From Steroidobacter agaridevorans (GTDB lineage: Bacteria; Pseudomonadota; Gammaproteobacteria; Steroidobacterales; Steroidobacteraceae): 64,000 bases of DNA. Positions 12,096 through 57,149 of this stretch are shown piece after piece. The stretch is taken from positions 713,399-777,398 of the forward strand of contig NZ_BLJO01000002.1 of assembly GCF_009932555.1 (NCBI RefSeq), written 5' to 3'. A program made the position numbers and the translations under genes. The notes under the pieces are model-generated. The model made no database searches, was not told the origin of the DNA, and worked only from the letters and a program-made list of their open reading frames with translations. Within the stretch, counting starts at the first letter, position 1. The number at the start of each line of letters is the position of its first letter.

Positions 12096-12827
12096 CTACT
12101 TGCGCCGGAGCTTCTGGAACTCCGAGAACTCCCAGGAGCGTAACGACAGTATCGCGCTACAACTGTCCCGCTCCTCGAGCGGACGCCTCGCATCTTTGTG
12201 TGCGAGGTCCTCGAACTCCGTCGCCAGACGATCGATGCCCGCTTTGAATTTCATCAACGATTCGGCGGTGAGCAGGCCGCCGAAGAAGCGCAGCTCATCG
12301 CCCTGGCCGTCGAAGCGTCCGCCGAAGAATTCCGGCACCACTCGTTTCAGAAAGAATTCATGGACCGGCCCGTCCTTGCGCCATGAGAAATTGCGCGCTG
12401 TGAGCTTGCGGATCCGATTGGGCGGCTTGAACTCGGCAATGCCCAGGCGCTCGAGCTTGATCAGGATGTCGATCAGCTCGCTTTCGCTCAGCTGGAAGGT
12501 CGAGAGGATTTCCTGGAAGCGCCAGTCATTGGCGGTGAGATAGGCCACCAGCAGCAGCTTCGGCCGACTGACGATGGCCCGCTCCTGCTCATCGCTGAGC
12601 TGAGTCAGCATCGCGCCCGGCACGGGCGGGTGCACCAGCTCTTCAAGGTCGATGCCCACCGCGTCGCAGATCCGGTCGAGTCGCTCCAACGAAAACGTGC
12701 CACGGCTCAGGTCCCGCTTGATCGTGGGCTCGCTGACTCTCAGGCGCCGCGCCAGCTCGCCATAAGTCACACCGCGCAGCTTCAACACCGCTTTCAAGTT
12801 TTTGATGAGCGTCTTCGAATCGGCCAT
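12096..12827 (-). CDS. XRE-type helix-turn-helix transcriptional regulator
   Basis: The 243-residue product has an N-terminal Cro/C1 helix-turn-helix (about 5-65: LKAVLKLRGVTYGELARRL then VSEPTIKRDLSRGTFSLERL). A larger C-terminal region, rich in charged helices and a second winged-helix-like segment (about 80-150), may sense a ligand or dimerise. I do not recognise the C-terminal family. ATG 12827 starts MADSKTLIK. The gene is divergent from the ketosynthase/oxidase operon, and the 143-base gap contains an A/T-rich palindrome, so it most likely regulates itself and that operon. Confidence 0.82.
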   Translation of the reverse strand: MADSKTLIKNLKAVLKLRGVTYGELARRLRVSEPTIKRDLSRGTFSLERLDRICDAVGIDLEELVHPPVPGAMLTQLSDEQERAIVSRPKLLLVAYLTANDWRFQEILSTFQLSESELIDILIKLERLGIAEFKPPNRIRKLTARNFSWRKDGPVHEFFLKRVVPEFFGGRFDGQGDELRFFGGLLTAESLMKFKAGIDRLATEFEDLAHKDARRPLEERDSCSAILSLRSWEFSEFQKLRRK

Positions 12828-12861
12828 GGATTGCGCACTCCCCGTCCGGCGCCCGCAGGAC

Positions 12862-12890
12862 GGTATAATAATACGATACCTTCCGTATCG
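12862..12890. promoter_or_regulatory. Palindromic promoter/operator between XRE regulator and ketosynthase operon
   Basis: The segment contains TATAAT on the plus strand (12864-12869), overlapping reverse-strand TATTAT hexamers, and two inverted repeats: GGTAT...ATACC (12862-12880) and CGATAC-CTTCC-GTATCG (12874-12890), the latter a perfect six-base stem. It is the only A/T-rich patch in the divergent gap. A role as shared operator for the XRE protein is inferred from position and symmetry. Confidence 0.5.
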
Positions 12891-12970
12891 ACCGGTGTCA
12901 CGCCGCCGCGAGTATTTGGCGTGCGAACGGCGCCCCGTCAACCTGCCCACGGGTTCCACGGGAGATCCAC

Positions 12971-14812
12971 ATGCCGATTCGATTCGACAATGTTTATGTG
13001 ACATCGACGGGGTCGTTTCTACCGGGCGCGCCCGTCGGCAACGACGATATCGATCGCTACATCGCTCCTATCAACGCCACGTCCGCGCGCATCAAGCGGC
13101 GCATTCTCGCGGAGAACGGCATCACCCGCCGGCACTACGCGATCGATGCGAACGGCGAGACGGTGCTTTCGAACACGCAGATGGCGGCGATGGCGATCAA
13201 CCGTTGTTTGTCGGATGGCGAGGTCGAGCTGCAGGACGTAACCATCCTGTGCACTGGTTCATCGGGAGGCGATCTCGCGATGCCCGGCTTTGCCAACATG
13301 GTTCAAGGCGAGCTGCATGCGCCTCCCATGACCACGAGCGCGCACCAGGGTGTGTGTGCCGCAGGCATGGCAGCCCTACAGCATGCGGCCACTGCCTTGG
13401 AGCTGAGCGACAAGGGCAATGCGCTCGTCACCGCGAGCGAGATGCCGTCACGCATGTTCAAGCATTCCAGGTTCGCTCCGCGAGGCTACGCGACCGATTT
13501 CGACTCGCACTTCCTGCGGTGGATGTTGTCGGACGGCGCAGGCGCCTGCTTGCTCAGCAAACAGCCGCGACGCTCGGGCGTGTCGCTCAAGCTGAAGTGG
13601 ATCCACAACCGATCCTTTAGCGGCGATCTGCCAGTGTGCATGCAGATCGGTCAGCCGGGCGGCGCACAGGGCCGGTCCTATCTCGATTACCCTTCGCTAG
13701 CGGACGCAGAAGCCGACGGCGCGTTTCTCTTGCGGCAGGATGTGCGCTTGCTGCCGCACTTGTTCGAGCTGGGCATTCATGAATATGCGACGCTGGTCCA
13801 GCAGGCCGCGTTTCGGCCCGAGCAAATCGATCACTTCCTCTGCCACTACTCGTCGCAGAAATTCGCAGGCGTCGTCGAAGATCTCATGCAACGCGCCGGG
13901 CTCGCGATCCCCCGCGAGCGTTGGTACAGCAATCTCACCTGGCGTGGCAACACCGGCGCCGCCTCGATCTTCATCATGCTGGCGGACTTCGTGCGTGAGC
14001 GCGAGCTCAAACCGGGCCAGCAGATTCTGTGCTTTGTCCCGGAGTCGGGCCGCTTCAGCATTTCTTTCATGCACCTGGAGGTTGTAGAAGGCGACGCTGC
14101 CGTGCAGATGTGTAACATCGCCCCTCCCCACGAAGCTTGGCCGACGCAGTCTGCTCCGGCGTCGCGCTTGATCCAGGAACTGGCGTCGGTGTGGCACGAG
14201 TATCGTTCGCGCGCCTGGCGCAGCGGATTGATCCGGAAGATCGTCGCTGGCGAGTTCACCAATGCCGACTACGTGCGCTGGATGTCGTGCTGGATTCCGC
14301 AAGTCCGTGAAGGCAGCCGGTGGATGCTCGCCGGCGCCAGCAACCTCGATCCGCGCTACGCCGCTTTGACGGCGCTCGTGAGCAAGCATGCCGGCGAGGA
14401 GCGCAACGACTTCAAGATCCTGTTCGAGGACTATCGATTGGCGGGCGGCGTGGCCGGCATGATCGAGGAGCTGCGCCGCAATCCAGGCGGTGAGGCCCTC
14501 AATGCCTACATGAATGCGCTCGCGAGCGAGCCGACTCCGCTGGGCTTGCTCGGTGCGATTTACATCATCGAAGGCACCGGCCAGCGAATCATTCCGGCCC
14601 TGTTGCCGCTCTTGCGCGATCAGCTCGACCTGCCCTCGCAGGCGTTCCGCTTCCTCAGCTATCACGGCGAGAACGACGCCTCGCATCTCGAGCGCTGGCT
14701 CACTGCCGTCGAGATGGCCGTGCAGCTCAGCCCGGGTTGCGAACGGCAGATCCTCAACGTGGCCCGCCACACCGCGGAACTCTACGTCCTGCAGATGGAG
14801 CACGTCCTGTGA
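12971..14812 (+). CDS. Ketoacyl synthase III fused to heme-oxygenase-like di-iron oxidase domain
   Basis: Residues 1-375 are a KAS III/FabH-like thiolase-fold enzyme with a complete Cys-His-Asn triad: C129 in HQGVCAAGM, H292 in CHYSSQKF and N327 in WRGNTGAAS. Residues about 400-613 are helical and carry the ligand pattern of heme-oxygenase-like di-iron oxidases: E476/E477 in HAGEERND, E534 in YIIEGTG and H565-x3-D569-x2-H572 in SYHGENDASH. In family members known to me the first motif is usually ExxH; here the histidine position appears to be D480. Fusion suggests that a beta-ketoacyl product or substrate is passed to an oxidative step such as C-C or C-N cleavage. The gene is coupled by GTGA to the next one. 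Confidence 0.82.
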   Translation: MPIRFDNVYVTSTGSFLPGAPVGNDDIDRYIAPINATSARIKRRILAENGITRRHYAIDANGETVLSNTQMAAMAINRCLSDGEVELQDVTILCTGSSGGDLAMPGFANMVQGELHAPPMTTSAHQGVCAAGMAALQHAATALELSDKGNALVTASEMPSRMFKHSRFAPRGYATDFDSHFLRWMLSDGAGACLLSKQPRRSGVSLKLKWIHNRSFSGDLPVCMQIGQPGGAQGRSYLDYPSLADAEADGAFLLRQDVRLLPHLFELGIHEYATLVQQAAFRPEQIDHFLCHYSSQKFAGVVEDLMQRAGLAIPRERWYSNLTWRGNTGAASIFIMLADFVRERELKPGQQILCFVPESGRFSISFMHLEVVEGDAAVQMCNIAPPHEAWPTQSAPASRLIQELASVWHEYRSRAWRSGLIRKIVAGEFTNADYVRWMSCWIPQVREGSRWMLAGASNLDPRYAALTALVSKHAGEERNDFKILFEDYRLAGGVAGMIEELRRNPGGEALNAYMNALASEPTPLGLLGAIYIIEGTGQRIIPALLPLLRDQLDLPSQAFRFLSYHGENDASHLERWLTAVEMAVQLSPGCERQILNVARHTAELYVLQMEHVL

Positions 14813-15705
14813 ACAGCCAACCGAATTTCCTCCGCGAACCGCACGATCCGAAGGACCCGAGCCCGTGGCGCGCCCTGTATCTGGATCAAAGCCTGCCGCT
14901 CGCCGAAGAGTGCAAGCGCGCCTGGCTGGAGGACGTGAGCTCCCGCTCGCGGCAGTTCCTGCTGCCGCTGGTGAGGCCGATCGCGCGTCTGACCATCGTC
15001 GCCCTGCAGATCCTCAAGATCGTGATTCCGAAGCGCTTCACTTCCTCGGCGCTATTGCATCGGCTGCTGGAATGGAACATGCGCACCTGGCTGTCACCCA
15101 ACGCCAATCTGCTGATCTTCCGGCACTTCCATCTGGGCTCGGAGATCCTCGACTTCATCGCGCGCAACACGCGAGGAGTGACTGTGACGACCAACCCGCT
15201 GAAGCCGAGAAGGCTCACGGAAGTTCGCGATCACCTCTATCTGAAGCACGATATCAATCTGTTCAATTTCGTGATCGCCCTCAACGAGCAGCTGCGCGAG
15301 CGCGGCCTCGAGCTGGCGCCCATCGACGAACTCGACTTCAGCGGCATTACCGACGGACCGCTGCCGATCGAGCCCATGCCCGCGCGCTGGAGCAACTTCA
15401 TCGACCTGCAGACCGCCATCGAGCTGTACACACCGTTCTACCAGCTGCTGCTCACCGACAACGACTTCTGGCGCGCTTCGAACTCATTGCAACTGGATGA
15501 GACGATTGGACTTTATGTCGCGCGTCTGCTCGGTACGGCCTGGACGCCGGCGCTCATCAACAACCGCCATCCGCTGGTGCCGCTGTCGACCATGCAGGCC
15601 GGCTTTCGCCTGGTGCTCCATGGACTTGCCACCGAGATGCAGCACGCATTGCTGGTGCAGTACAAGCGCGCACAATTGCAAGTCTTGACAGCTCGCTCGT
15701 CTTGA
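14809..15705 (+). CDS. Unrecognised protein coupled to the ketosynthase-oxidase
   Basis: The 298-residue product begins at GTG 14809, which overlaps the previous stop as GTGA, so it is translationally coupled. I do not recognise a family. Residues about 45-75 are hydrophobic and basic (LLPLVRPIARLTIVALQILK), suggesting a membrane-associated or amphipathic helix. There is a histidine-rich FRHFHLGSE at about 103-111, and the C-terminal half is helical with ELYTPFYQLLLTDNDFW and GLATEMQHALLVQYKRAQLQ. No signal peptide is visible. It may be a partner or second enzyme of the ketosynthase pathway; this rests only on gene coupling. Confidence 0.75.
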   Translation: MNSQPNFLREPHDPKDPSPWRALYLDQSLPLAEECKRAWLEDVSSRSRQFLLPLVRPIARLTIVALQILKIVIPKRFTSSALLHRLLEWNMRTWLSPNANLLIFRHFHLGSEILDFIARNTRGVTVTTNPLKPRRLTEVRDHLYLKHDINLFNFVIALNEQLRERGLELAPIDELDFSGITDGPLPIEPMPARWSNFIDLQTAIELYTPFYQLLLTDNDFWRASNSLQLDETIGLYVARLLGTAWTPALINNRHPLVPLSTMQAGFRLVLHGLATEMQHALLVQYKRAQLQVLTARSS

Positions 15706-15741
15706 CTCCGCGACTCGGGTCGATCGTGCCTGCCAAGTGAT

Positions 15742-15756
15742 CCACAAAAGTTGTGG
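15742..15756. other. Hairpin in the gap between convergent genes
   Basis: CCACAA-AAG-TTGTGG is a perfect six-base stem with three-base loop, 37 bases after the operon end, but it lacks a following T tract. It could be a weak terminator or a protein site. The rest of 15706-15934 shows nothing else I can name. Confidence 0.3.
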
Positions 15757-15934
15757 GCAACCCTGTGGATATCTTTGGACGCACGACCTTTTGCCGGGAA
15801 ATTCACGCGCCAGAATCGCGTGCTCAAGTTTTGATCAATCCGTGACGCTTGCGCACGGTGTTCTGCGCGAGGCGCGGCTATGCTGAGCGCCGAGACCTGG
15901 CCCGGATTTTCCGCCGAAGGTCAAGGCGCTCGCG

Positions 15935-18712
15935 TCAGAACTTGACGCGGGCGCCGACGCTGTAAATCGTCTCGTCGCCCATCAGCCCGAGGACGACTCG
16001 TTCGTTCCCCCAGTAGCTCGAGGTCTTGTTGCGCAGGATGTTCGTGCCGCCGATGTCCACACGCAACGCATCGGTCACGTCGTAGCCGATGCTGAAGTCG
16101 AGACGGCCGGCGGGCCGGACATAGGATAGGAAGACCGGCACATAGGCTTCGTTCACCCGCTCCGGATCGAACGGCCGCAGCGCCACGCCGCCGGTGTTGT
16201 CGGCGTTGATGTATTTGGAGCGATGGGTCCAGATCAAGCGGCCGCTGATGGCGGACTTGTCGTAGAGCAAGCCGACCGTGTAATTGTATTTGGACACGCC
16301 CACCAGGGGATTGCCCGCGAGCGGATCGTCGCCCTTGATCTCCGAATCCGCCAGCGTGAATGCGCCCTGCACGCCGACGCCCGACCACGCTCCCGGCAGG
16401 AAATCGAAGAAATACTGGGCACTGACTTCGAGACCTTGCAAGTCCACCGAGCCGACATTGCGCGGGCTGGAGATCAGGTAATTGAGTCCGTCGATCGTCT
16501 CCTGAGTGCTCGAGGTGACGACACGGTCCTTGATCGAGCGATAGTAACCAGTCACCGCGGCATAGCCGCTGTCGAAGTAATATTCCGCCGTCAGGTCGAT
16601 GCTGTCCGATGTCTGCGGCTTCAGATTGGGGTTGCCGCGCGTGCCGTTGTTGAGCAGAAACACATTGCCCACCAGCGTCAGCGATTCAGCGGGATTGAGC
16701 GACGCAAAATCCGGGCGCCTCATCGAGCGCGAATAGGTCAGGCGCGTCTGGAACGAATTCGGGAACACTAGCCGCGCCGTCGCCGCCGGCAGGACGTCGA
16801 CGTCCGATGTATCGGCCCGCACCGGACTGAAGGTGCTGCCCGTCCGCTCGAAGCCTTCGATGGTCCGCTCGGTCTTGACCACTCGCGTGCCGATTACGCC
16901 GTCCAGCGTCAGCGATCCCAGCGGAATCTCATAGGCGCCCTCGACGTAGGCGGCATATGTCGGCTCTTCGGCATTGAATTCCTTGGTCGGCTCGTAGTCG
17001 GGCTGCCGCAGCGGCAGGTTGAACAGGCTGCGCAACTCGTTGCGACCGCGCTCCGAGCGGAGATAGGCCGGGTTCACGCCGAGAAACTCGGCCCCGCCGT
17101 TGAGCCTCGGCGCCTCCCCAATCACGCCCAGGAAATCGGGTGACAGCGGCAGGCTGGAGATCAGCCGCGCGTTCGCCTCGGTCGGGGTGCCGATGTTTCC
17201 AAAGCCGATCGACTGGACCGTGTTGGTCTGTCGCACCTCCTGAAATCGCGTCTCGCGTCTGGCGTAGCGCAGGCCCGTCTTGACCTTGGGAACGATGCCA
17301 CCCAGCTCGAACTCTCCATCGAGCCGCGCCTGGAGCAGTTCGCCCTCGCCGAGCGTGTAATTCTGGTTGATCGAGTTGCGCAGCGAGAGGTTCGCCGAGC
17401 TCAACGGAATCGAGGGATCGATCGTGAACGACGGACCGTCGTCGTCATCCAACTCGACGAAGATCGTCGGCACGCGCTGACCGACCTCGGCGTTGAAGTT
17501 CTCCAGGAACGATCGCGACGTTTGATAGGCCACGTCGAACATGACTTTCGCGCGATCCCGCTCCCAGTTCAAACCGCCCGCGATCATCTTGTTTCGCTGA
17601 GTCACGTCCTCCGACGAGGAGTTCTGGTTGATCACGACATTGTCGAAGCGCGCGCTCTCGAGCTCGCACACTCGCCGCACCGTGAATGGCTGGATCGACA
17701 CCGTTCCATCGGCATTGTTGACCAGCGTCGGGTTGGTGCCCTGGGCATTCACGCGAGCGTCGAAGCAATAGTCGCTGACCGTGACGTCGGACATCCGCGA
17801 GTTGTTGGTGAAGGGCTGCGGATTGAAACCGGCAAAGCCGGTCGTGCTGCGGAAATGCGTGTAGAGGCCGTCTGCGTAGACCTGCAGCGCCGGCGTCGCC
17901 TGCCACTGGACCGCCGCATTCGCTTGCTTCCGGTCGATGTCGCCCACATCGGGCATATTTCTCAGCACCTGAGGAACGAGCAGGTCGGGCACGTTGAGCG
18001 GGGCCACGCCCGAATAGCGGCGTTCGCTCAGGTTGGAAACGCTGCGGATGTTCTCGGCGCGAGAATAGGTCGCGTTGATCAGGGCGCCGATTTCGCCGAT
18101 CGACGTATCGGTCGTGCCTGCCGCAAGCACGCCGAACTGCGGGTTGTGCGCATCGGCAATGTCGGCGTAGTTGTCTCGTGCTGTTACGACCAGCGTCGGT
18201 TCGCTGAAACTGAACGGGCGGTTGAGCCGCAGGTCGAGCGCACCGGCCACGCCGCCCTCGATCTGATCCACCGTCTGCGACTTGAACGCATCGATGCGAG
18301 CGAGCGCCTCGGCCGGCACATCTTGCAGATCGAAGCCGCGCCCGGTTGTTGTGATCACCTCGCGCCCATTCACCGTCGTCAGGATGTCGGTCAAGCCGCG
18401 AATGCGCACACCCGACAGCTCGTTGTTGCGGTCGTTCTGCACCTGAATGCCGGGCACGCGCTGGAGCGCGGCGGCGACGGTGGGATCGGGCAGCTTGCCG
18501 ATGTCGGTCGCGACGATCGAGTCGACCACCTGCACCGAATCGCGTTTCACTTCCGCCGCGCGTTCGAGCGACTGGCGAACGCCAGTCACAACGACTTCTT
18601 CATAGTCCGCCGGCGCCGTTGCGTCTGGCGCCGCCCCACTCTCCTGGGCCATGACGGGAATGGAAACAAACACAGCCGTGGCCGACACGGCGCTAAGGAG
18701 CTTGAGCCGCAT
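15935..18712 (-). CDS. TonB-dependent outer-membrane receptor
   Basis: The 925-residue product has a signal peptide (about 1-22), a TonB box-like EEVVVTG near 40, a plug domain (about 55-175: VVDSIVATDIGKLPDPTVAA, RVPGIQV, VRIRGL, GREVITT) and a 22-strand-type barrel. It ends in YSVGARVKF with the C-terminal phenylalanine needed for barrel insertion. The sequence type (Caulobacter-like receptor with internal LNPAESLTL and RGNPNLKPQTS motifs) is usually linked to uptake of carbohydrates or similar large nutrients; the ligand is unknown. ATG 18712 has GGGGG just upstream; a TTG at 18721 is the alternative. No carbohydrate enzymes flank it. Confidence 0.93.
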   Translation of the reverse strand: MRLKLLSAVSATAVFVSIPVMAQESGAAPDATAPADYEEVVVTGVRQSLERAAEVKRDSVQVVDSIVATDIGKLPDPTVAAALQRVPGIQVQNDRNNELSGVRIRGLTDILTTVNGREVITTTGRGFDLQDVPAEALARIDAFKSQTVDQIEGGVAGALDLRLNRPFSFSEPTLVVTARDNYADIADAHNPQFGVLAAGTTDTSIGEIGALINATYSRAENIRSVSNLSERRYSGVAPLNVPDLLVPQVLRNMPDVGDIDRKQANAAVQWQATPALQVYADGLYTHFRSTTGFAGFNPQPFTNNSRMSDVTVSDYCFDARVNAQGTNPTLVNNADGTVSIQPFTVRRVCELESARFDNVVINQNSSSEDVTQRNKMIAGGLNWERDRAKVMFDVAYQTSRSFLENFNAEVGQRVPTIFVELDDDDGPSFTIDPSIPLSSANLSLRNSINQNYTLGEGELLQARLDGEFELGGIVPKVKTGLRYARRETRFQEVRQTNTVQSIGFGNIGTPTEANARLISSLPLSPDFLGVIGEAPRLNGGAEFLGVNPAYLRSERGRNELRSLFNLPLRQPDYEPTKEFNAEEPTYAAYVEGAYEIPLGSLTLDGVIGTRVVKTERTIEGFERTGSTFSPVRADTSDVDVLPAATARLVFPNSFQTRLTYSRSMRRPDFASLNPAESLTLVGNVFLLNNGTRGNPNLKPQTSDSIDLTAEYYFDSGYAAVTGYYRSIKDRVVTSSTQETIDGLNYLISSPRNVGSVDLQGLEVSAQYFFDFLPGAWSGVGVQGAFTLADSEIKGDDPLAGNPLVGVSKYNYTVGLLYDKSAISGRLIWTHRSKYINADNTGGVALRPFDPERVNEAYVPVFLSYVRPAGRLDFSIGYDVTDALRVDIGGTNILRNKTSSYWGNERVVLGLMGDETIYSVGARVKF

Positions 18713-23872: not shown

Positions 23873-24313
23873 TCAGGAATCGGGTAAATTGTCGACCCAT
23901 GGATTGAACACCGGCACGCGCGCCTTTGCATATTCGGCAGTATCACGCGAGACGACTGTGAGACCGTGATGCTGACCGGTCGCAGCGATGATGAGATCGG
24001 GTTGCGGGAAGGTATGTCCGCTCTTGCGCCCTTCCTCAACCATGAGTCGCCACTTGAACATGACGTCCTCGCTGACCGCGAGCGCTCGCCCCTCAAACAT
24101 CGGGCGAACTTTGTTAGTAAGCCAGTCCGTGAGTTCGGAGCGGCGCCCGGGATCGGGAACGAGCTCTATACCAAAGCGGATCTCGGCCAGCGTCACGATG
24201 CTGATATGAAGTAGCTCGAGGGGTTGGCTCGCGACGAACGCAAGTACCTTACGTTCCGGCCTTGGCCGACGGAGCTCCGAGAGAATGTTAGTGTCCAGCA
24301 GCCAACCTGTCAC
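23873..24313 (-). CDS. VapC-like PIN-domain toxin
   Basis: The 146-residue product is a PIN-domain ribonuclease: LLDTNILSELRRP (first acidic residue D7), TLAEIRFGIE (second), QPDLIIAATGQHHGLTVVSRD (third and fourth acidic positions) are all present. VapC toxins cleave tRNA or rRNA. The GTG start overlaps the antitoxin stop as GTGA. The catalytic residues are complete, so the toxin should be active. Confidence 0.93.
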   Translation of the reverse strand: MTGWLLDTNILSELRRPRPERKVLAFVASQPLELLHISIVTLAEIRFGIELVPDPGRRSELTDWLTNKVRPMFEGRALAVSEDVMFKWRLMVEEGRKSGHTFPQPDLIIAATGQHHGLTVVSRDTAEYAKARVPVFNPWVDNLPDS

Positions 24314-24633
24314 AGAGAGATATCTCGTACGGGCATGGGTTCCCGCTTGGGCGCGATATCGACATCACGATAAGGCGATGCTTGCATCGCCGCTATGAGC
24401 GCCTCACCGGTCACGTCGCCCTTCATGCGTCGAAAGTCCTCAGCGGCGATTACTACCACTTCATCGCGCCCATGCACGGTCACGTGCTGCGGCCCTTCGC
24501 TTCTGACCTTGCGCACGAGTTCGCTGAACCGCGCCTTGGCGTCCTGCAGGACCCAATATCCCCGTCGATTCTTCGCAGCCGCGCGCTGAGGCTTCTTGGG
24601 TGCTCCGGATTTGGATTTTGGTGACCTAGTCAT
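24310..24633 (-). CDS. Phd/YefM-family antitoxin
   Basis: The 107-residue product has a basic, low-complexity N-terminus (1-25), then a Phd/YefM DNA-binding fold (about 27-75: YWVLQDAKARFSELVRKV, PQHVTVHGRDEVVVIAAEDF), then a C-terminal tail that would wrap the PIN toxin. It is the partner of VapC, coupled by GTGA. The ATG lies inside a perfect palindrome, which suggests autoregulation and little or no leader. The frame is open upstream of 24633, but the earlier residues do not resemble the family. Confidence 0.87.
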   Translation of the reverse strand: MTRSPKSKSGAPKKPQRAAAKNRRGYWVLQDAKARFSELVRKVRSEGPQHVTVHGRDEVVVIAAEDFRRMKGDVTGEALIAAMQASPYRDVDIAPKREPMPVRDISL

Positions 24634-24642
24634 GCTGACTAG
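24626..24642. promoter_or_regulatory. Perfect palindrome over the antitoxin start codon
   Basis: CTAGTCA-TGC-TGACTAG is a perfect seven-base inverted repeat with a three-base centre; the antitoxin ATG (24633-24631) is within it. GCTAAT-like sequence next to it may be part of the -10 region. Antitoxin repression at such sites is established for Phd/YefM systems. Confidence 0.55.
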
Positions 24643-24688
24643 ATTAGCATGTCTCGTAAGCTGCTGCGGCGGCCTCTTCTCGCTTGTT

Positions 24689-24922
24689 TTATCTTGCGAA
24701 AATGGCGGCTGAATGTTCGCAATTATTTGATTCAAAAAGATTTTTTGTGACTTTACGCAGACTGAACCGGAAGAATTCTTCCACCTCGCGCACTCGACGC
24801 GTCGCGTCCTCAGCGAGCCAATCGAGACGACCTTTTCCCATTCTGCGCGCCGCCATTCGGGCCTCCATCAGATTTGCATTCATTCGACAGACCGTCAAAA
24901 GATGCTGAATTTTACGGATCAT
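24689..24922 (-). CDS. Possible small protein of unknown function
   Basis: This 77-residue reading frame begins MIRKIQHLLTVCRMNANLME and is rich in Arg, Lys and Glu with a helical middle (RRVREVEEFFRFSLRKVTK). Its ATG overlaps the end of the 24912-25763 gene by 11 bases, which favours translational coupling. No homologue comes to mind, and it could be a chance frame in an accessory region. Confidence 0.35.
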   Translation of the reverse strand: MIRKIQHLLTVCRMNANLMEARMAARRMGKGRLDWLAEDATRRVREVEEFFRFSLRKVTKNLFESNNCEHSAAIFAR

Positions 24923-25763
24923 CTGGCGCGCGCTGTAGCACGCCCCTCAATCTGGTGCGCGCCGGTGTGGCAGCAGCTTCGAGAGCCTCCAAATCTTCAG
25001 AATTCGCTTCGGTCTTGCCCTGAATGTATTGGTGCGTTGGTAGCATCACGTAGTCCAACGCGCGCTTGTTAATGACAATGGTCCGGTGCCAACCCTCGGC
25101 GGCCAGAACGATCATGCCATCTGCCGACTGCCCGCCATCAAGATCGATCAGCTCTGAGAAGGCTCGGTAAAGCCTCTCAGGACCGTCGACGTAAACACTT
25201 CGTCGGTTACCCGAAGACAGCTGGTAAGTTGTTCTGTTAGCGAGAGCGAAAATCAGATCTGTTTCCTTCTGATTCTTCTCGCGTTCACTTTCAAGATCCT
25301 CTGGCTTGATCCGCCCATCAGCCACCAGCTTTTCGTACTGCTCATCCGTGATCATTACTCGCTCAGTGACCCGCTGCACATCGACCGGATCGAAGTCCTC
25401 CAGACCAATACCATCTGCTGCCAACGCCTCGACAATCTCCCAGTCGCGCGTATCCGGCATTTGAATGCTTACGTGATCTGGATAGTCACGGAACACTTCG
25501 CCCTCGGGCCCACAATCGTCGTACGCCTCGCTGGAGAAGTACAAGTCAGCGATAGCGCCGCTTCTAATGACTACTGTCTGATTCGCTAGACTTTGGACCA
25601 TCACGAACGCTAAGTCTTCCTGCAGTTCCTCGTGCAGACGACGAAACGCTCCGTCTGAAATGGAAAGCAGCAGAGGAGCCCCGCCGCCGCAGAACTGAAT
25701 CGACACTTCCCCATAGTAGTTAAGGTCCTCACCCACCGGTGATTCACGCGCCGAGAGAGCCAC
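24912..25763 (-). CDS. Unrecognised acidic protein
   Basis: The 283-residue product starts at GTG 25763 and has no signal peptide or membrane helix. It is acidic in the middle (IGLEDFDPVDVQRVTERVMI, ITDEQYEKLVADGRIKPEDLESE). N-terminal and C-terminal parts contain beta-rich segments, including VYVDGPERLYRAFSELIDL and WHRTIVINKRALDYVMLPTHQYI. I do not recognise a family. It is the only sizeable gene in a gene-poor, less GC-rich stretch between a toxin-antitoxin pair and a tRNA, which fits acquired DNA. Confidence 0.6.
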   Translation of the reverse strand: MALSARESPVGEDLNYYGEVSIQFCGGGAPLLLSISDGAFRRLHEELQEDLAFVMVQSLANQTVVIRSGAIADLYFSSEAYDDCGPEGEVFRDYPDHVSIQMPDTRDWEIVEALAADGIGLEDFDPVDVQRVTERVMITDEQYEKLVADGRIKPEDLESEREKNQKETDLIFALANRTTYQLSSGNRRSVYVDGPERLYRAFSELIDLDGGQSADGMIVLAAEGWHRTIVINKRALDYVMLPTHQYIQGKTEANSEDLEALEAAATPARTRLRGVLQRAPDDP

Positions 25764-26187
25764 TAAGCGTTCGATGAGGAGTTGGTATCCTCGAGCGGAC
25801 TAGGTTGAACCGTTCTAACGAAACGGCTCGAGTTCTGGCGAAACTGCAGGAAAGGCACACCGAATTGAGCCGGAACGCGAGCTATTCAACGCGCGCTCCT
25901 ATCCGGCGATGAAACTGAAATCCACGTTTGCGCAACCTCGATTCCAACAACGTCCACACAACGACGAGCGCAGTAGCGAAGACCGCCTGCCACAGAGCGC
26001 CCCGCGCCCTACGTGGGCGCCACCAAACTCAGCTGCTTCGAGCGCAACTAACAGCATCTAGAGACGCTCGCATACTAAGGCACTTGAGCAAGTTGACGCG
26101 TCACGCGGTCCTTCAAGGCCGCTGATCGAATACTTGGCTGGCATCCCTGCCGTGCATACTGAGCTACGGATTGGTCTCTTTTTGAGT
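25764..26187. other. Gene-poor 0.4 kb next to tRNA-Arg
   Basis: No credible gene is visible. The only longer frame (25928-26125, plus strand) is short, has no ribosome binding site and an unlikely composition. The composition is less GC-rich than the surrounding genes. The stretch ends in the 12-base tRNA-like repeat and a CTC-AAAAA-GAG patch just beyond the tRNA 3' end. I read it as the edge of a decayed insertion. Confidence 0.4.
26158..26169 (-). repeat. Direct copy of 12 bases of the neighbouring tRNA gene
   Basis: ACTGAGCTACGG at 26158-26169 repeats exactly the bases 26248-26259 inside tRNA-Arg (acceptor/D-arm side), 90 bases away and 18 bases beyond the tRNA 3' end. It may be a tRNA remnant left by recombination at the tRNA, or a chance match to a conserved tRNA segment. 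Confidence 0.35.
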
Positions 26188-39782: not shown

Positions 39783-41426
39783 TCAAAGCCAGCCGTGCAG
39801 CGAGCACGCCGCGAGATAGCCCAGCGCCACCAGGCTGGGCAGCCGCCACCAGTGCGCGGACGCGCTGAATAATGTTTCCACGCCATACATCAGCACCACC
39901 AGCTTCGCGATGCTCTCGCCGACGGTCGCCGAGCTCACCACCGAGCCCGGCAGATTGGGCACGGCCACTGCAATAAAAACGACCAATATGTCCAATGGCG
40001 TGACCCGGAAGCGCCGGTCGCTCGCGAGCCGGAAACGTATGACGATTGCAGTCACCAGTGCTGCAAACAACACCACCTGCAGCGTCGCGCGCCGATCCAG
40101 GAATGTCGTTGTCTGACGATCGAAATACACGGCCATCACCAGCGCGAGGAACGCGGCGCCCTTCAACATCCAGCCCGAGTCCGCCTCCCGCCAGCGCATG
40201 GCCATCGAGCCCGCGGTGACGACCGCAACGATCGCCGCCATGATTTGCACGTCACTGCTGGGCGGCGGACTCTCGAGGCCCACCGAAAAAAGATATACAG
40301 CGACGGCGGCTGCGATGAAGAGCAGCGCCCAGCGTGGCAAACGCGCTGGCGCACGCAGCCAGACGACGAATCGGCCCAGCTGCGACGAACTGCCGTTGCC
40401 ATTGCGGCTCACCGGGCGCCACCGCCAGCCCAACGCCGTCGCCAGCTGCAACGAGCCGATGACGAGCAACGACACACCGGCGAACGAGGCGACGATGGTG
40501 AAGTCGGATTCGTAGCGCAGATACCAGGCGGTGACGAACAGGCAGGCCTGCAGCAGATAAATGCCCATCACCGCCTCGTGATGATCGAAGCCGAGCGCGA
40601 GCAAACGGTGATGGATGTGATTGCGATCCGCCTGCAGCGGCGACCGGCCTTCGAGCATCCGTTGCGTCATCACCATCAGCGTGTCGATGATGGGAATGCC
40701 GAGCAACAGCAACGGCAGCGCGGAGCTGAGCGGCGTCGTTTCGTCCTGCGTGAGCACCACTGCGAGCACGGCGACCGAGAAGCCGAGGATCTGGCTACCG
40801 CCATCGCCCATGAACACGCGCGCCGGATGCGTGTTGTAGCGAAGGAAGCCGAGGATCGCGCCGACGATGACGATGGCTACCACGCCTACGAACGGCGTGC
40901 CCGAAGTAAATGCCAGCAATGCCAGCGCGGACAGTGACAGCAACGTGGTGCCGCCCGCCAGTCCGTCGAGGCCGTCAGCGAGATTGATGGCATTGGTCAC
41001 GCCGATCAGGAACACGAACGTCAGCGGCCACGCGATGGCGCCCGGCAGCTCGTACCGCTCCGCCAGGGTCACGGTGGAGATGGTCACATCGCCCCACTGC
41101 ATGATCAGCAACACCGCGATGATCTGACCGAGCAGCTTCGGGCCGGCGCTCAAGGTCACCCGGTCGTCCCAAACGCCGAACAACAGCAGCACCAGCACGC
41201 CGGCGAGATAAGCCGGCATGGGCTGTGCGAACTCGCCGGAAAGTAACAAAGCCAGCAGCGTGCCGGCCGCCATCGCGATGCCGCCCACCCTCGGCACGGG
41301 CGTCGTGTGCACCTTGCGGGCTTCCGGTGCGTCGAGAAAGCGCCAGCGTGCGGCCGCCTGCATCAGCGGCGGGATGAGCGCCATCGTGACGCTCATCGCC
41401 AGCAGGAAGCCCAGCATCAGGTCCAT
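39783..41426 (-). CDS. WecA/MraY-family sugar-1-phosphate transferase
   Basis: The 547-residue polytopic enzyme transfers a sugar-1-phosphate (probably HexNAc) to undecaprenyl phosphate, initiating repeat-unit assembly. Visible motifs are VHTTPVPRVGGIAM, FGVWDDRVTL (aspartate pair), TNAINLADGLDGLAGG, FMGDGGSQILG and the cytoplasmic RNHIHHRLLALG. About eleven helices form the family core (to about 325); an additional C-terminal region of about 200 residues with five or so helices extends beyond normal WecA length. It is eight bases downstream of the exosortase gene. Confidence 0.9.
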   Translation of the reverse strand: MDLMLGFLLAMSVTMALIPPLMQAAARWRFLDAPEARKVHTTPVPRVGGIAMAAGTLLALLLSGEFAQPMPAYLAGVLVLLLFGVWDDRVTLSAGPKLLGQIIAVLLIMQWGDVTISTVTLAERYELPGAIAWPLTFVFLIGVTNAINLADGLDGLAGGTTLLSLSALALLAFTSGTPFVGVVAIVIVGAILGFLRYNTHPARVFMGDGGSQILGFSVAVLAVVLTQDETTPLSSALPLLLLGIPIIDTLMVMTQRMLEGRSPLQADRNHIHHRLLALGFDHHEAVMGIYLLQACLFVTAWYLRYESDFTIVASFAGVSLLVIGSLQLATALGWRWRPVSRNGNGSSSQLGRFVVWLRAPARLPRWALLFIAAAVAVYLFSVGLESPPPSSDVQIMAAIVAVVTAGSMAMRWREADSGWMLKGAAFLALVMAVYFDRQTTTFLDRRATLQVVLFAALVTAIVIRFRLASDRRFRVTPLDILVVFIAVAVPNLPGSVVSSATVGESIAKLVVLMYGVETLFSASAHWWRLPSLVALGYLAACSLHGWL

Positions 41427-41433
41427 TGGGGCC

Positions 41434-43029
41434 TCAGTCGGGAATATAGCGCTCGAGGCGCGGTGCGACCTGGCCCGCGAACTCGACCAGTCGGCGATCG
41501 CCGTTCTGCACGGGCTCGCCGATCGCCAACGGCGTCACCAGGCGCACCAGCGCTCCATCGGTGCGCTGACGGGTGAGCGAGTCGAGGAACAAGTACCACT
41601 TCACCAGATATTCATTGGTGATGACGCGGCCACGCTGCTGGAACCAGTAATACACCAGCTGTTTGCGGCTGCCGAGCTCGATCTGCACCCGGTTCGCGCG
41701 CAGCGGCTTGCCGGCCACTTGCACACCAGCCACCTCGACCTCATCGAACTCGGTCATACGCCAACCGCCGCCGGGCAGGCATGAGCGCGGCGAATGTGCC
41801 GAGCTGCCGGCACGTTGCGAGTCGTACCACGCCACATAGAAGTTCACGGCCTCACGGCCGCCGCGCATGTAATCCGAGATGATGTAGTCATCCAGCTTGA
41901 GCTGGTCCAGGAAGATCTGTTCCATCGCGCTGCGCTTGCCGGTCCAGGACTCGACTTGATTCGGGAACGCGAAGAACGATTCGCGCTTCGGAATAGCCTC
42001 GGCGCGTTCCGGCGCCAGCATCACGCCAGCCGCGAAGGCACTGACGATCACCGTACTTACGATGAAGGATGCCGGCGCGGCGCGATGAACCGGCGGCGCG
42101 CTGCTATCGATGGGCTCGGCTTCGTCCAACCCGAACACCTCGCGCCACGGACGACGATTCTTGCCGATCCTGGCGAGCAGCATCATCTCCAGCAGCAACA
42201 CGCCGGCGCTGGTCATGAACACCGCCCAGCCCTGGAAGTCGTGCAGGAAGCCTTCCGCCATCTTGTGGCCCCAATGCTCCACCATCACCCCGATGGTGCC
42301 GATGCGGAAGCTGTTCATGAGAATGGTCACGGGAATGCTGGAAACGAACAACAGCCAGCGCTTCCACATCTCGACCTTGAACATATAGGCCATGATGAAG
42401 CCCATGGTCATCAGCGGGAACAGATAGCGCAGACCATCGCAGGCCTCGGCCACCTGCAGCTTGTAGCCGCCGAGGTCGATGACGTTGCCTTCGACGAACA
42501 CGCTGATGTCGAACAGGCGAATGAACCAAACGCCGATCTGCGAAGAGATCAGCTGCAGCTGCGCGGAGAAGTTCTGCAGCAGAAACTCGGGCAAAGGAAC
42601 CATCAATGCCAGCAACAGCAGCGGCGCCCACAAGTTCATCGCCGAGCGCACGCCGATCAACGCCACCACCAGGCCGTAGATCGCCAGCAGCAGACCGTAC
42701 TGCTGTACCACGTCGACCGTTGCCAGCACGCCGGCGATCTGCAACAGCGCGCCGAACACGACGAGTGCGACGCCGCCCCACGAGCCGTTGAACTCCAGAC
42801 GCGCCAGCTCGCCCCGACGTTGCCACAGCAAATACGCCGAGATCACCGGAATCAGCAACGCGTGGCTGTACTCTTCGCGCTCCAGCCACGTGGCGATCAT
42901 GTGATCGATGCCGGTCTGCATCATGGCCGCCGTGATCACGGCGACCATGGCCAGGGCGACCCAGGCATACAGCCAGGGGGTGGCGGCCGGCCGGTCCGGC
43001 GCCGCTGACGCTCGAAGTACTGTACTCAT
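41434..43029 (-). CDS. xrtD: Exosortase fused to EpsI domain (VPLPA-specific, XrtD-like)
   Basis: The 531-residue product has an exosortase membrane domain (about 20-300, eight or so helices) with the catalytic set C197 in AEACDGLRYL, R242 in NSFRIGTIG and H263 in EGFLHDFQGW. After a linker, an EpsI domain (about 335-531) follows with VESWTGKR, NFYVAWY and SCLPGGGW. Exosortases cleave sorting signals on exported proteins in an archaeosortase-like transpeptidation. The fused EpsI form is typical of the VPLPA-CTERM type XrtD, and four VPLPA-type proteins lie at 57.8-61.8 kb. ATG 43029 gives the expected N-terminus; the open frame upstream is not used. Confidence 0.92.
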   Translation of the reverse strand: MSTVLRASAAPDRPAATPWLYAWVALAMVAVITAAMMQTGIDHMIATWLEREEYSHALLIPVISAYLLWQRRGELARLEFNGSWGGVALVVFGALLQIAGVLATVDVVQQYGLLLAIYGLVVALIGVRSAMNLWAPLLLLALMVPLPEFLLQNFSAQLQLISSQIGVWFIRLFDISVFVEGNVIDLGGYKLQVAEACDGLRYLFPLMTMGFIMAYMFKVEMWKRWLLFVSSIPVTILMNSFRIGTIGVMVEHWGHKMAEGFLHDFQGWAVFMTSAGVLLLEMMLLARIGKNRRPWREVFGLDEAEPIDSSAPPVHRAAPASFIVSTVIVSAFAAGVMLAPERAEAIPKRESFFAFPNQVESWTGKRSAMEQIFLDQLKLDDYIISDYMRGGREAVNFYVAWYDSQRAGSSAHSPRSCLPGGGWRMTEFDEVEVAGVQVAGKPLRANRVQIELGSRKQLVYYWFQQRGRVITNEYLVKWYLFLDSLTRQRTDGALVRLVTPLAIGEPVQNGDRRLVEFAGQVAPRLERYIPD

Positions 43030-43099
43030 CTGCCGTTCGGCCAGAATTGTTCGTTTGTGAGATCGCGAAGGGTATGGTGGGTGTGTGACAGTCCAAAGA

Positions 43100-44248
43100 C
43101 TAAGCGGCGGTGAAGCTGGCGCTGCGGGCCGGCACGCAGGATCGATACAAGTCGACAAAGCGCCTGCCGATGTGAGACCACTGGTATTTCTCCGCCACCA
43201 GCGCTCGTCCCCGCTCGGCGCTGGCCGCCCGCATCTGCGCATCGGACAGCATTGCCCTCATCGCCTCGCCGAGCCTGTCGGGCACGCCGGGCGCCACGAT
43301 GGCCGCACCCGCGGCCTGCGCTTCCGGAAAGTTACATTCAGGGGTCACGATCAGCGGCGCGCCCGCAGCCAATGCCTCGAGCAATGTGATGCTCTGAGCC
43401 TCGTGACGGCTCGGCTGAATGACACAAATCGCATTCTGCAGCAGAGCTACCTTGGCGGCGCCATAGATCGCGCCGACAACCTTCACGCGAGCGCCGAGTC
43501 CAAGTCGCGCCACTCTCTCGAAAACATTGTCACGTTCGCCGCCGTCCGGGCCGGCGACGATCAGGTCCACGTCAGGAAAAGCCTGCGCCACGGTGGCAAA
43601 CGCATCCACCGCGAGATCCGGCGCCTTGATGTGATGCAAGCGCGCCAGAAACAGCACATAACGACGCCCGGCGGTCAGCTCACGGATTGGCTCCTCCCCC
43701 AGTTGCGTCTGAAACTCCGCCGTGTCGATCCCGTTCGGCAGCACTGCCAATCGCACTGGTGCTGTGACTTTCCCGAGATCCGCCGCTTCGATGTCATTCA
43801 ACACGTGCAGATAACTGGCCCGTCCCAGCAGCTTGCGCCACCCCAGGGCCAGCGCCAGCCGTTTGCGTACCGGCTTCTGGCTCAGGCTGAAGGCCGAGAG
43901 CATCCCGTGCGGGGTGATGACGAAAGGCAAGCCATTGCGGTCCGCCCAGCGCAGCGCGAACAACAATTGCGGTTGCCAGAGCCCGTGAACGTGGAGCACA
44001 TCGATATTCGATTCGCGCAGCACACTGATCGCATCCCGACCGGGCGAGGTGAAAGCCACAGCAACCCGATCCATGCCGCGCACTTGCGCCAGGCTCTTAC
44101 GGACATCGTCGAATCGCGCTTGGGGATGAGAGGCAAGCAACGTGACGGCCGCTGCGTGGCTTGCCTGTGCGCTCGCCAGGCGAGTCGCGACGGCGGGCGG
44201 ACCGCCTTGAGCCGGATCGAGCGAGGTAATCAGATGAGCGATGCGCAT
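43100..44248 (-). CDS. Glycosyltransferase family 4
   Basis: The 382-residue GT-B enzyme has an N-terminal acceptor domain (MRIAHLITSLDPAQGGPP, VHGLWQPQ, TPHGML) and a nucleotide-sugar domain with VLPNGID, VLFLARLHHIKAPDL, VAGPDGGE and the acidic HEAQSITLLEALAAGAPLIVT signature. It is one of four transferases that add sugars to the undecaprenyl-linked repeat unit. ATG 44248 is five bases after the stop of the acetyltransferase gene, so the two are coupled. Confidence 0.9.
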   Translation of the reverse strand: MRIAHLITSLDPAQGGPPAVATRLASAQASHAAAVTLLASHPQARFDDVRKSLAQVRGMDRVAVAFTSPGRDAISVLRESNIDVLHVHGLWQPQLLFALRWADRNGLPFVITPHGMLSAFSLSQKPVRKRLALALGWRKLLGRASYLHVLNDIEAADLGKVTAPVRLAVLPNGIDTAEFQTQLGEEPIRELTAGRRYVLFLARLHHIKAPDLAVDAFATVAQAFPDVDLIVAGPDGGERDNVFERVARLGLGARVKVVGAIYGAAKVALLQNAICVIQPSRHEAQSITLLEALAAGAPLIVTPECNFPEAQAAGAAIVAPGVPDRLGEAMRAMLSDAQMRAASAERGRALVAEKYQWSHIGRRFVDLYRSCVPARSASFTAA

Positions 44249-44253
44249 CTCGG

Positions 44254-44931
44254 TTAGATCCGTTCGCCGCGCAGGCTGCGTCGCTTGACGAGCGCTGCTG
44301 GATTGCCACGATAGATTCCATACTCCTCGGTCGTGGCTGTCAGGATGCTGCCCGCGGTCAGCACACTCATTCTTTTGAGAGTCACACCCGGGCACACGAT
44401 CGCGCGGGCCCCGACCCAAGCCCCGTCTTCGAGTTGGATGGGCGCCGTGATCAAGCCGAAACGCAGGTCGCGATAGTCATGGTTCCCGGTCAGCAGATAG
44501 GCATCCTGCGAAACGCAGGCGTGCGCGCCGATGGTGACTTTCGCAAGATTGTCGATCCACGAGCCTTCTCCGATCCATGCGAAGTCGCCCACCGACAGCA
44601 GCCAGGGATATTTGATGCGCACGCGCGGCTTGATGACGATTCTCCGGCCCATGCGCGCGCCGAATGCACGCAGCAACCATACCTTCGGCGCCGACACCGG
44701 CAATAGGCACGAATCGAAAAACAACGCATGCACGACGTACCAGGCCACGCGTCGTGCGATGGAAGCCTGGGGCGAATAGCCGCGCCGATCGTAATCATCC
44801 AGGCGCGTAAGCGGCCCCTCCTCGCTCGGATGAGACGTCGTCGCGCCGGACGCGTTCAGAAACATGGAATCCACGGGATCGATTTGTTTCTTGGCAAACC
44901 AGCCGCCTTGGTATCCCAACACTGTTACCAT
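44254..44931 (-). CDS. WcaF-like sugar O-acetyltransferase
   Basis: The 225-residue product is a left-handed beta-helix acetyltransferase of the WcaF type: RIVIKPRVRIKYPWLLSVGD, AWIGEGSWIDNLAKVTIG, SQDAYLLTGNHDY (catalytic histidine) and WVGARAIVCPGVTLKRMSVL show hexapeptide repeats. It would acetylate a sugar of the exopolysaccharide, with acetyl-CoA as donor. The first 22 residues are atypical; ATG 44865 would give 203 residues and leave a wider divergent promoter gap to the plus-strand gene at 45000, so the true start may be there. Confidence 0.88.
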   Translation of the reverse strand: MVTVLGYQGGWFAKKQIDPVDSMFLNASGATTSHPSEEGPLTRLDDYDRRGYSPQASIARRVAWYVVHALFFDSCLLPVSAPKVWLLRAFGARMGRRIVIKPRVRIKYPWLLSVGDFAWIGEGSWIDNLAKVTIGAHACVSQDAYLLTGNHDYRDLRFGLITAPIQLEDGAWVGARAIVCPGVTLKRMSVLTAGSILTATTEEYGIYRGNPAALVKRRSLRGERI

Positions 44932-44999
44932 TTAATGTCGTTGACGACTTTCCGCCGGTAGCGCAGCATCCGCGCGCTCTTCCCTCTCCGCTTCCGCCC

Positions 45000-46193
45000 A
45001 TGCGATCCAGCACACGACCGATCCGGGTTGCGCTGTTCCAGAACATCGTTGCGCACTATCGGCAGGCCTTACTGCGCGAACTGGAAAATATTCCGGCGCT
45101 GGAGCTGCATCTGTTCGCCGATACGGATGCCGGCGGCCAGGCGATTCCAGTCCTCGATCTCGCCACGCATCCGAGATTTCACAGGACCGCCTGCCGACCG
45201 ATGTTTCGTGCGACCTGGCAAACCGGCGCGGTCACCGAGGCCGCCACGGGAAGATTCGACGTTTACGTATTCATGGGCGACGCGTCGTGGCTGTCGACCT
45301 GGGTGGCTGCATGCATCGCTCGCGCCAGAGGCCGCCGTGTTCTGTTCTGGACTCATGGCTGGACGCGCCCCGACCGCGGCCTGAAGCGGCTCGTGCGCGT
45401 GTTGTTTTATCGCCTGGCCAACGGACTGCTCCTGTATGGCGAGCATGGCAAGCGGCTCGGCATCGCTGCGGGATTCGATCCGAACCGTCTGCACGTCATC
45501 TTCAACAGCCTGGATTTCGACCAGCAGCAGGCACTCCGCGCGAGCATTTCAGAGGCCGATATCTACAGCATTCGTCGACAGTTGTTCGGCGTCGAGGACG
45601 CGCCGGTGGTCATGGCCACGGCGCGTCTGACATCTGTCAAACGTTTCGACTTGCTGATCCATGCCTGCGCGCTCGCGCGCCGGAGCCGGCCCGACCTGCG
45701 ACTGCTGATCGTTGGAGATGGCCCGGAAAAGGGCTCCCTCGAGCAGCTCGCCGCCGAATGTGGCGTAGCTGCGGCTTTCGTTGGACCTTGTTACGACGAG
45801 GCGACGCTGACGCGATATTTCGCATGCGCCAATGTCACCGTTTCACCTGGCAACGTCGGGCTGACGTGCATGCATAGCTTGGGGTATGGCGTGCCGGTCA
45901 TCACGCACGACGAAGCCAAACAACAGATGCCCGAATTCGAAGCGATCGTTCCCGGAGTGACGGGTGCGCTGGTATCGAAGGATTCCGTCGAGGCGCTGGC
46001 GGCAGCCATCGTTGCATGGACCGCAACGGCCGCGGTCAGCCCAGAGACGCGCGAAGCCTGCCTCGCTGCGATACGCGAACGCTATCATCCTCGCGTTCAG
46101 GCACGTTTGCTGAGCGAGGCAATGCTGAGCGCCGGCAGCTCAGCGACGATAGGTCGAAACCGTCAAGAAGATGTCCTGCCACGTGTGCCGTAA
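45000..46193 (+). CDS. Glycosyltransferase family 4, opposite orientation
   Basis: The 397-residue GT-B transferase has VALFQNIVAHYRQALLREL at the N-terminus, FWTHGW and then the donor-binding part VMATARLTSVKRFDLL, LLIVGDGPEKGSLE and PGNVGLTCMHSLGYGVPVITH. It is the only plus-strand gene within the 35-58 kb locus. Its last 54 bases overlap the convergent flippase gene, so antisense transcription is possible. Role: addition of a sugar to the repeat unit. Confidence 0.9.
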   Translation: MRSSTRPIRVALFQNIVAHYRQALLRELENIPALELHLFADTDAGGQAIPVLDLATHPRFHRTACRPMFRATWQTGAVTEAATGRFDVYVFMGDASWLSTWVAACIARARGRRVLFWTHGWTRPDRGLKRLVRVLFYRLANGLLLYGEHGKRLGIAAGFDPNRLHVIFNSLDFDQQQALRASISEADIYSIRRQLFGVEDAPVVMATARLTSVKRFDLLIHACALARRSRPDLRLLIVGDGPEKGSLEQLAAECGVAAAFVGPCYDEATLTRYFACANVTVSPGNVGLTCMHSLGYGVPVITHDEAKQQMPEFEAIVPGVTGALVSKDSVEALAAAIVAWTATAAVSPETREACLAAIRERYHPRVQARLLSEAMLSAGSSATIGRNRQEDVLPRVP

Positions 46194-47558: not shown

Positions 47559-47585
47559 GGCTTTGGACGGCGCCCGCGACGGCCG

Positions 47586-48671: not shown

Positions 48672-48678
48672 ACTCGAT

Positions 48679-49281
48679 CTACTTCACCAGGGTCAGCGCA
48701 ATGTTCTGAGCGGGAAACAGCCGGCTCAGGAACGTCAGCTCGTAATACTTCTGCAGCTTGAAATGCAGGTTGACGACCGGCTCGAGCAGATAGTCCCACA
48801 GCAGCGGCCCGCGAAAGAACGTCAAGCGGCGCTCGCCGATCGCGGCAAAGGAAAAATCGAAGTAGTACGAGCGCGCGCCCGCGCCGACGAAAAAGTCGAA
48901 GGTGCGGATGGAGAAGCGCTGACGGTGCGTCGGGTCGATGTAGTTGTCCACCGATGTGAAATGCGGAACCTGCACGTAAAGAGTGCCGCCAACGCGCAGG
49001 ATGCGGTGAATCTCGCGCAACAGCCGCGGGTAATCGACGTGCTCCAAAACGTCCTTGGCGCACACATGATCGAACTGCTGGTCATGGAATGGCAGCGGCA
49101 ACTGGTCCAGGTCGTGCACCACGTCCACGCCGGGCAACGCAGCACGATCCAGATTGACCCAGCCCGGACGGATGTCGGTGCCGCAGCCGAGATTGAGCTT
49201 TCTCGACGCCGACGCCTCGGCGCCGGTGCGCGCAGCCGCGTCAGGCCAGCTCGTAGACGATGGTGGTGATACGGCCGCCAT
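48679..49281 (-). CDS. SAM-dependent methyltransferase
   Basis: The 200-residue class I methyltransferase has motif I KLNLGCGTDIRPGWVNLD (about 28-45), DLDQLPLPFHDQQFD and CAKDVLEHVDYPRLLREIHR. It is of the type found in polysaccharide clusters, where it methylates a sugar or a chain end. The start ATG 49281 overlaps the upstream methyltransferase gene by 41 bases, an unusually long but in-locus overlap; no other start before motif I is available. Confidence 0.88.
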   Translation of the reverse strand: MAAVSPPSSTSWPDAAARTGAEASASRKLNLGCGTDIRPGWVNLDRAALPGVDVVHDLDQLPLPFHDQQFDHVCAKDVLEHVDYPRLLREIHRILRVGGTLYVQVPHFTSVDNYIDPTHRQRFSIRTFDFFVGAGARSYYFDFSFAAIGERRLTFFRGPLLWDYLLEPVVNLHFKLQKYYELTFLSRLFPAQNIALTLVK

Positions 49282-49960: not shown

Positions 49961-50041
49961 GGACCTATCCGTGAAGGACGCGCAAGGGGCGCAATTTGCA
50001 TGCTATTTATGACGAGATGATGATGGCGATGGAGCGCCGGC

Positions 50042-53399: not shown

Positions 53400-53401
53400 C
53401 G

Positions 53402-54229: not shown

Positions 54230-54238
54230 GAATCACCC

Positions 54239-57144: not shown

Positions 57145-57149
57145 GTGAA

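Follow-up and report, generated by a model that had tools for sequence, protein, structure and literature searches.

A ketosynthase fused to a haem-oxygenase-like domain, with a DUF6999 partner, as a candidate lipid-forming system in Steroidobacter agaridevorans

What could be made by an enzyme in which a ketosynthase and an iron-oxidase-type domain share one polypeptide, and what is the role of the second gene coupled to it? This question is raised by a locus of Steroidobacter agaridevorans that lies in a stretch of 64,000 nucleotides (contig NZ_BLJO01000002.1, positions 713,399 to 777,398; hereafter the window), from a genome of 8.0 Mb in 26 contigs. In an original prediction, made from the letters of the window, the locus was described as a KAS III domain fused to a haem-oxygenase-like domain and coupled to a partner without recognisable family, the two forming a small pathway for a modified fatty-acid-derived product. 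Our analysis confirmed the observation on fusion, residues and coupling, and partly supported the interpretation. We tentatively propose, with somewhat less than even confidence, that the fusion joins two fatty-acyl thioesters and then oxidises the product to a ring-type lipid, the partner, a DUF6999 protein, being its likely obligate helper. The genes and domains concerned are the following.

12971 to 14812, plus strand: whole fusion gene, a single frame of 613 residues, with stop codon TGA at 14810-14812.
12971 to 14086, plus strand: StlD/DarB-like ketosynthase domain, residues 1-372 of the fusion, with C129, H292 and N327.
14153 to 14809, plus strand: PF14518 haem-oxygenase-like domain, about residues 395-613 of the fusion, with candidate ligands H473, E477, D480, E534, H565, D569 and H572.
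14809 to 15705, plus strand: partner gene, 298 residues, DUF6999 (PF22523), whose GTG start overlaps the fusion stop (GTGA).

That ketosynthase and oxidase lie in one polypeptide was borne out, since the 613-residue frame carries two Pfam families above their cut-offs: ACP_syn_III_C (45.4 bits; cut-off 26.6) and Haem_oxygenas_2, PF14518 (42.1 bits; cut-off 28.9), the latter with residues 508-605 aligned to profile positions 79-176 of 177. Each of the two domains belongs to a known superfamily. All nine residues that had been named (C129, H292, N327, E476, E477, E534, H565, D569 and H572) were located as claimed, and the predicted coupling by GTGA is real, with the GTG of the partner at 14809 running into the fusion stop. 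Of 7999 scored candidates, 7389 were homologues of the fusion, a figure that may include unfused ketosynthases. When the best 120 matches were freed of four with no more than 590 residues, 116 homologues were left for alignment, and every one of them keeps C129, H292, N327, E477, E534, H565, D569 and H572; the catalytic triad, said to be intact, is therefore invariant. A contig of a metagenome-assembled genome of Steroidobacter (L002) holds a protein 81% identical to the fusion over its full length.

The partner is not without family, as had been supposed. It matches the named Pfam family DUF6999, which is still without an assigned function, at 415.5 bits (cut-off 27) over positions 1-275 of 275, and 3115 homologues were found. 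Comparison of the partner with PDB sequences gave no match, Foldseek gave none at E 0.001, and no paper on DUF6999 was found in the open-licence PMC literature, where absence is weak evidence. As to the membrane-associating helix proposed for it, a hydrophobic segment does exist, the most hydrophobic 19 residues beginning at 51 (Kyte-Doolittle 1.68, as against a median of 1.62 in 120 homologues of the family), but it holds prolines and arginines and makes a borderline candidate for a membrane helix.

Co-occurrence of the partner with the ketosynthase-oxidase pair, a check named beforehand, was followed at 20 loci, comprising 17 genomes with a full copy (the window included), one genome with a fragment, the Steroidobacter contig and a plasmid of Pseudoalteromonas sp. 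THAF3. All except the window and the Steroidobacter contig had been chosen for holding DUF6999. It can be seen that in 19 of 19 intact loci the ketosynthase and oxidase stand directly upstream of DUF6999 on the same strand, as one frame in 15 and as two genes in four (L010, L015, L018 and L037). The reciprocal survey was made with an oxidase profile over 145 genomes of one family, up to 20 candidates being scored per genome. Any match at all was obtained in 25 genomes; six scored at least 290 bits, the next 90.5, and these six are precisely the six with DUF6999. The expected association held in both directions, and the gene pattern suggests that DUF6999 is likely an obligate helper of the fusion.

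In the four two-gene loci, among them the THAF3 plasmid (L015), the trio is present in unchanged order, although ketosynthase and oxidase are separate genes there and DUF6999 is merely 26-27% identical in L015 and L018. In the oxidase tree the fused copies form one clade (95/90) and the split copies another (83/76). In the ketosynthase tree the fused group is weakly supported (69/84), the outgroup branches are very long and the split copies fail to cluster together; neither tree includes L033, which is close to L007. A genome of the same genus holds only a 64-residue C-terminal piece of DUF6999 (L019, 9706-9897; 83% identical) and gave no ketosynthase or oxidase match, an apparent loss of the system. 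DUF6999 was present in 5 of 299 genomes across the phylum, in 5 of 100 of the window's own family, and in 5 of 150, 6 of 145 and 2 of 149 in three other families; some genomes enter more than one of these tallies, the source genome being counted in the phylum and own-family sets. It occurred as well in one plasmid record and in one of 14 control genomes, that of Caulobacter vibrioides, which also gives a PF14518 match. Caulobacter vibrioides is a laboratory organism in which genes are routinely deleted and lipids routinely profiled. The abundance of homologues (7389 for the fusion, 3115 for DUF6999) argues for a system that is overlooked but widespread, not rare.

The first domain had been called a KAS III enzyme. 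Its triad is intact, but it resembles StlD and DarB more than it does a generic KAS III enzyme. StlD (PDB 5gk0/5gk2) is the best match in sequence and structure, over residues 6-372, and the domain has the thiolase fold with Cys-His-Asn, StlD being the nearest structure. Besides the triad, the segments SE(M/V)PS and HYSS are common to both. The StlD/DarB model NF005293 gave 360.8 bits over 1-378 of 378, short of its cut-off of 450, and the DarB model 298 bits against a cut-off of 550. The domain therefore differs from StlD and DarB in falling below both family cut-offs, in being 37% identical, and in carrying the iron-oxidase-type domain at its C-terminus. No other StlD/DarB-like ketosynthase of such strength exists in the source genome (362 bits; next 21). 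Enzymes of the DarB class are described as joining a β-ketoacyl to an α,β-unsaturated acyl thioester to give 2,5-dialkylcyclohexane-1,3-diones (PMC4578411; this and the other papers are cited here from parts of their texts). Neither an acyl carrier protein gene nor a DarA-like gene was recognised among the Pfam-scanned neighbours, no search aimed at DarA having been made. Separately, a DarB-like ketosynthase, 39% identical, was seen on a Streptomyces plasmid (NZ_CP108315.1; L053, 3992-5128), where its neighbours are an acyl carrier protein, an FAD monooxygenase and an SCP2 protein, with no haem-oxygenase-like di-iron oxidase (HDO) annotated.

Published HDOs have the common metal motif E-H-E-H-(D/E)-H (PMC11363339), and the ligands of MboA are Glu86, His89, Glu143, His172, Asp176 and His181 (PMC13185094). 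The counterparts in the fusion are E477, D480, E534, H565, D569 and H572, so that five of the six positions are kept. Like UndA, BesC, SznF, MboA and FlcD, the fusion has the PF14518 fold family with E534 and H565-x3-D569-x2-H572, and E477 is spaced like Glu86 of MboA before His89. It differs from these enzymes in Asp480, which replaces the His of helix 1, in an extra invariant H473 and in the attached ketosynthase. That D480 falls at the position of the canonical His was read from alignments with the nearest PDB sequence, 3dde (1.1e-11; E-E-x-x-H), and with the separate relatives L044 and L046 (E-x2-H). No exception to H473, E477 and D480 (i, i+4, i+7) was seen among the 116 fusions or in any of the ten rows of an alignment of six fused and four split copies, which argues that the set is a family trait and not a sequencing accident. 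H473 sits one turn before E477 and may be a metal ligand. In the ligand pattern first put forward, E477, E534, H565, D569 and H572 stand as invariant residues, while H473 and D480 had been missed. Its E476 was ruled out, because this position varies among the 116 fusions (E in 60, D in 55, Q in one) and is thus unlikely to hold a metal. H409 was rejected too: invariant in fusions, it is lost in split copies. In the predicted model (pLDDT 85.6) the oxidase domain is helical; lability of helix α-3 is described for known HDOs (PMC13108848). The domain is predicted to bind two irons.

The genes around the trio in other genomes point to lipids. A fatty-acid desaturase lies directly upstream of the fusion or pair in nine of the 20 loci (PF00487 by Pfam in L009, by tblastn in the others), and in eight of the nine it is preceded by a PF04116-type hydroxylase. 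The downstream neighbours were Pfam-scanned at 11 loci. DUF6999 is followed with a 4-base overlap by LplT-PlsC in L016, by a diacylglycerol kinase in L035 and by an alpha/beta hydrolase in L017, and after a 21-base gap by a full acyl-ACP-phospholipid O-acyltransferase in L010 (1580.7 bits; cut-off 1349). Since the operons of relatives add a desaturase and hydroxylase, an acyltransferase, a diacylglycerol kinase or a hydrolase, a lipid product appears likely. The fatty-acid-derived pathway originally suggested is therefore supported by its setting in relatives, while the likeness to UndA, BesC and SznF stays an analogy. At two loci (L034, 12378-13247; L036, 6692-7561) a PF10118 'predicted metal-dependent hydrolase' stands directly 5' of the fusion.

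How might the parts work together? An acyl chain would load on C129 and condense with a β-ketoacyl thioester, as in the formation of 2,5-dialkylcyclohexane-1,3-diones by DarB and StlD. The nascent product, which in the usual DarB scheme retains a carboxyl group adjacent to a CH of the ring, would then pass to the tethered iron domain. This domain would abstract the hydrogen β to the carboxylate, drive loss of CO2 in the manner of UndA and aromatise the ring, so replacing DarA. DUF6999 might assist, for example in hand-over of the substrate, assembly of the cofactor or some later modification, and lipid metabolism would receive the product or its chains. UndA is described as decarboxylating a fatty acid, a C=C bond being formed (PMC13108848), and DarA is labelled an aromatase (PMC3949708); it is by combining DarB ring chemistry with the CO2 loss of UndA that a tethered HDO could aromatise a ring by decarboxylative desaturation. 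By this analogy decarboxylative aromatisation would be the most probable of the specific reactions, although we give it much less than an even chance. Better support exists for the broader idea of a dedicated system of three parts that makes a lipid from two chains, with the attached domain oxidising it. The proposal in its boldest form is a self-contained lipid-ring synthase, in which a DarB-like cyclic two-chain intermediate would be aromatised through oxidative decarboxylation by a tethered, rewired oxidase (His/Glu/Asp for Glu/His), with DUF6999 obligate, making an undescribed class of phenolic lipids across Pseudomonadota. In this full form we consider it doubtful.

Several observations weigh against the formation of a ring-type lipid from two chains. 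With 361 bits against a cut-off of 450, the ketosynthase may accept a class of substrate different from that of StlD and DarB. The Asp at the second motif position, present in 116 of 116 fusions and in 4 of 4 split copies, departs from the canonical E-H-E-H-(D/E)-H, so that a standard di-iron site is not assured, and the predicted model breaks the helix at 478-479 as well as around 568-570. No desaturase or hydroxylase match was obtained at the window's own locus, and the desaturase of L009 as query gave no match in the source genome, in a search run without positive control. Seven of the 11 scanned downstream neighbours are not recognised as lipid genes or have no family above the cut-off (L002, L015, L018, L031, L032, L034 and L037). 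Finally, the acyltransferase and kinase neighbours could indicate a phospholipid acyl chain rather than a resorcinol.

Among the alternatives, that last one survives best. The trio would make an unusual acyl chain, for instance one with a branch, a ring or a double bond, which would remain a thioester and end up as an ester in membrane phospholipids; the part of the iron domain would be to desaturate or fragment this chain. Such a fate fits the lysophospholipid transporter-acyltransferase found after DUF6999 in two distant lineages (L016 and L010), the kinase and the hydrolase in a third and a fourth (L035 and L017), and the desaturase and hydroxylase upstream in others. However, the seven neighbours that are not recognised lipid genes tell against it as well, the gene downstream of the partner in the window is a 928-aa frame on the opposite strand, and StlD/DarB-type enzymes are described as makers of rings, not of acyl thioesters (PMC4578411). 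We hold this alternative to be possible, though unlikely.

A second alternative concerns the metal. With Asp480 in place of His, the haem-oxygenase-like domain may no longer hold two irons and be mononuclear or only structural. In favour of this, D480 is invariant and its position is taken by His in the separate relatives L044 and L046, and FlcD shows that changes in the motif can mean one iron (PMC11363339). In contrast to FlcD, which lost both helix-3 ligands, the fusion retains them as D569 and H572; H565 and E534 are kept too, and H473 adds an invariant residue near E477. We judge the loss of the two-iron site improbable.

Two further features lie upstream of the fusion.

12096 to 12827, minus strand: XRE-type regulator (HTH_26), divergent from the fusion; the start at 12827 was inferred from the match, and the longest frame extends to 13004.
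12873 to 12902, no strand assigned: candidate operator/promoter ACGATACC...GTATCG...GGTGTCACG, with a CGATAC-N5-GTATCG dyad.

An XRE homologue divergent to the fusion was found in four of the 20 loci (the window, L002, L016 and L017), and none in L018, of the same family as the window. In L002, L016 and L017 the stretch between regulator and fusion likewise contains ACGATACC and a block TGTCAC. Parts of the element were seen by eye in these three loci, the dyad being perfect here and in L002, not in L016 or L017. The dyad is likely an operator. Promoter and terminator scans of 12700-16000 gave one site each, both on the minus strand and neither above shuffled sequence. The trio might make a diffusible signal, an analogue of a dialkylresorcinol, cyclohexanedione or pyrone, under the divergent XRE protein, since photopyrones and dialkylresorcinols used in quorum sensing are products of related ketosynthases (PMC4578411) and the intergenic sequence of the four loci is partly conserved. 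The restricted occurrence of the XRE gene, its absence from L018, the lipid-metabolic neighbours in other genomes and the fact that an XRE regulator is not a LuxR-type receptor make a signal very unlikely.

It is just as hard to favour the reverse order of events, in which the iron domain acts first and supplies an alkene or α,β-unsaturated acyl partner for condensation by the ketosynthase. Known HDOs do desaturate (PMC13108848), and DarB-type condensation requires an α,β-unsaturated acyl partner (PMC4578411). Yet fatty-acid synthesis already supplies enoyl thioesters, and the nearest separate relatives found have a different set-up. When five loci (L044-L047 and L052) were compared with the proteins of L046 as queries, all five had the HDO flanked by an AMP-ligase and an SDR reductase, an acyl-activating trio for whose role no description was found. 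These separate PF14518 proteins reach 88-93 bits with the fusion-oxidase profile and likewise adjoin an acyl-activating-type enzyme, but L044 and L046 have the canonical helix-1 E-x2-H and fall in a separate clade of the oxidase tree, and in the short stretches viewed no ketosynthase or DUF6999 was noticed. One of the five, L052, is a second HDO of the source genome (G000:C1:1026554-1027141, minus strand), and a third PF14518 match there (L060; G000:C9:92409-92906) scores 39 bits. A role in anti-phage defence was rejected, as PADLOC returned 0 families.

Elsewhere in the window, the open reading frames at about 39800-58400 presumably form an exopolysaccharide cluster, which their starts resemble. 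Two small frames with a 4-base overlap (23873-24735) lie at the edge of the block of lowest G+C content (24001-26000, 0.558), and the 146-aa frame among them begins like what we take to be a PIN-domain toxin.

In the open-licence PMC literature searched, the fusion, its helix-1 ligand set and its constant DUF6999 partner were not found described, and such absence is weak evidence; in a 2026 HDO review the words 'ketosynthase', 'fusion' and 'fused' do not occur (PMC13108848). HDOs number more than 10,000 members, about a dozen of them functionally validated (PMC13108848). Because a covalent link joins the oxidase to the enzyme most likely making its substrate, the substrate problem should be unusually tractable here. 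The invariant change of His to Asp, together with the extra His, would test the limits to which the metal site of HDOs can be rewired, and the trio would give a first handle on DUF6999, a family present also in Caulobacter vibrioides.
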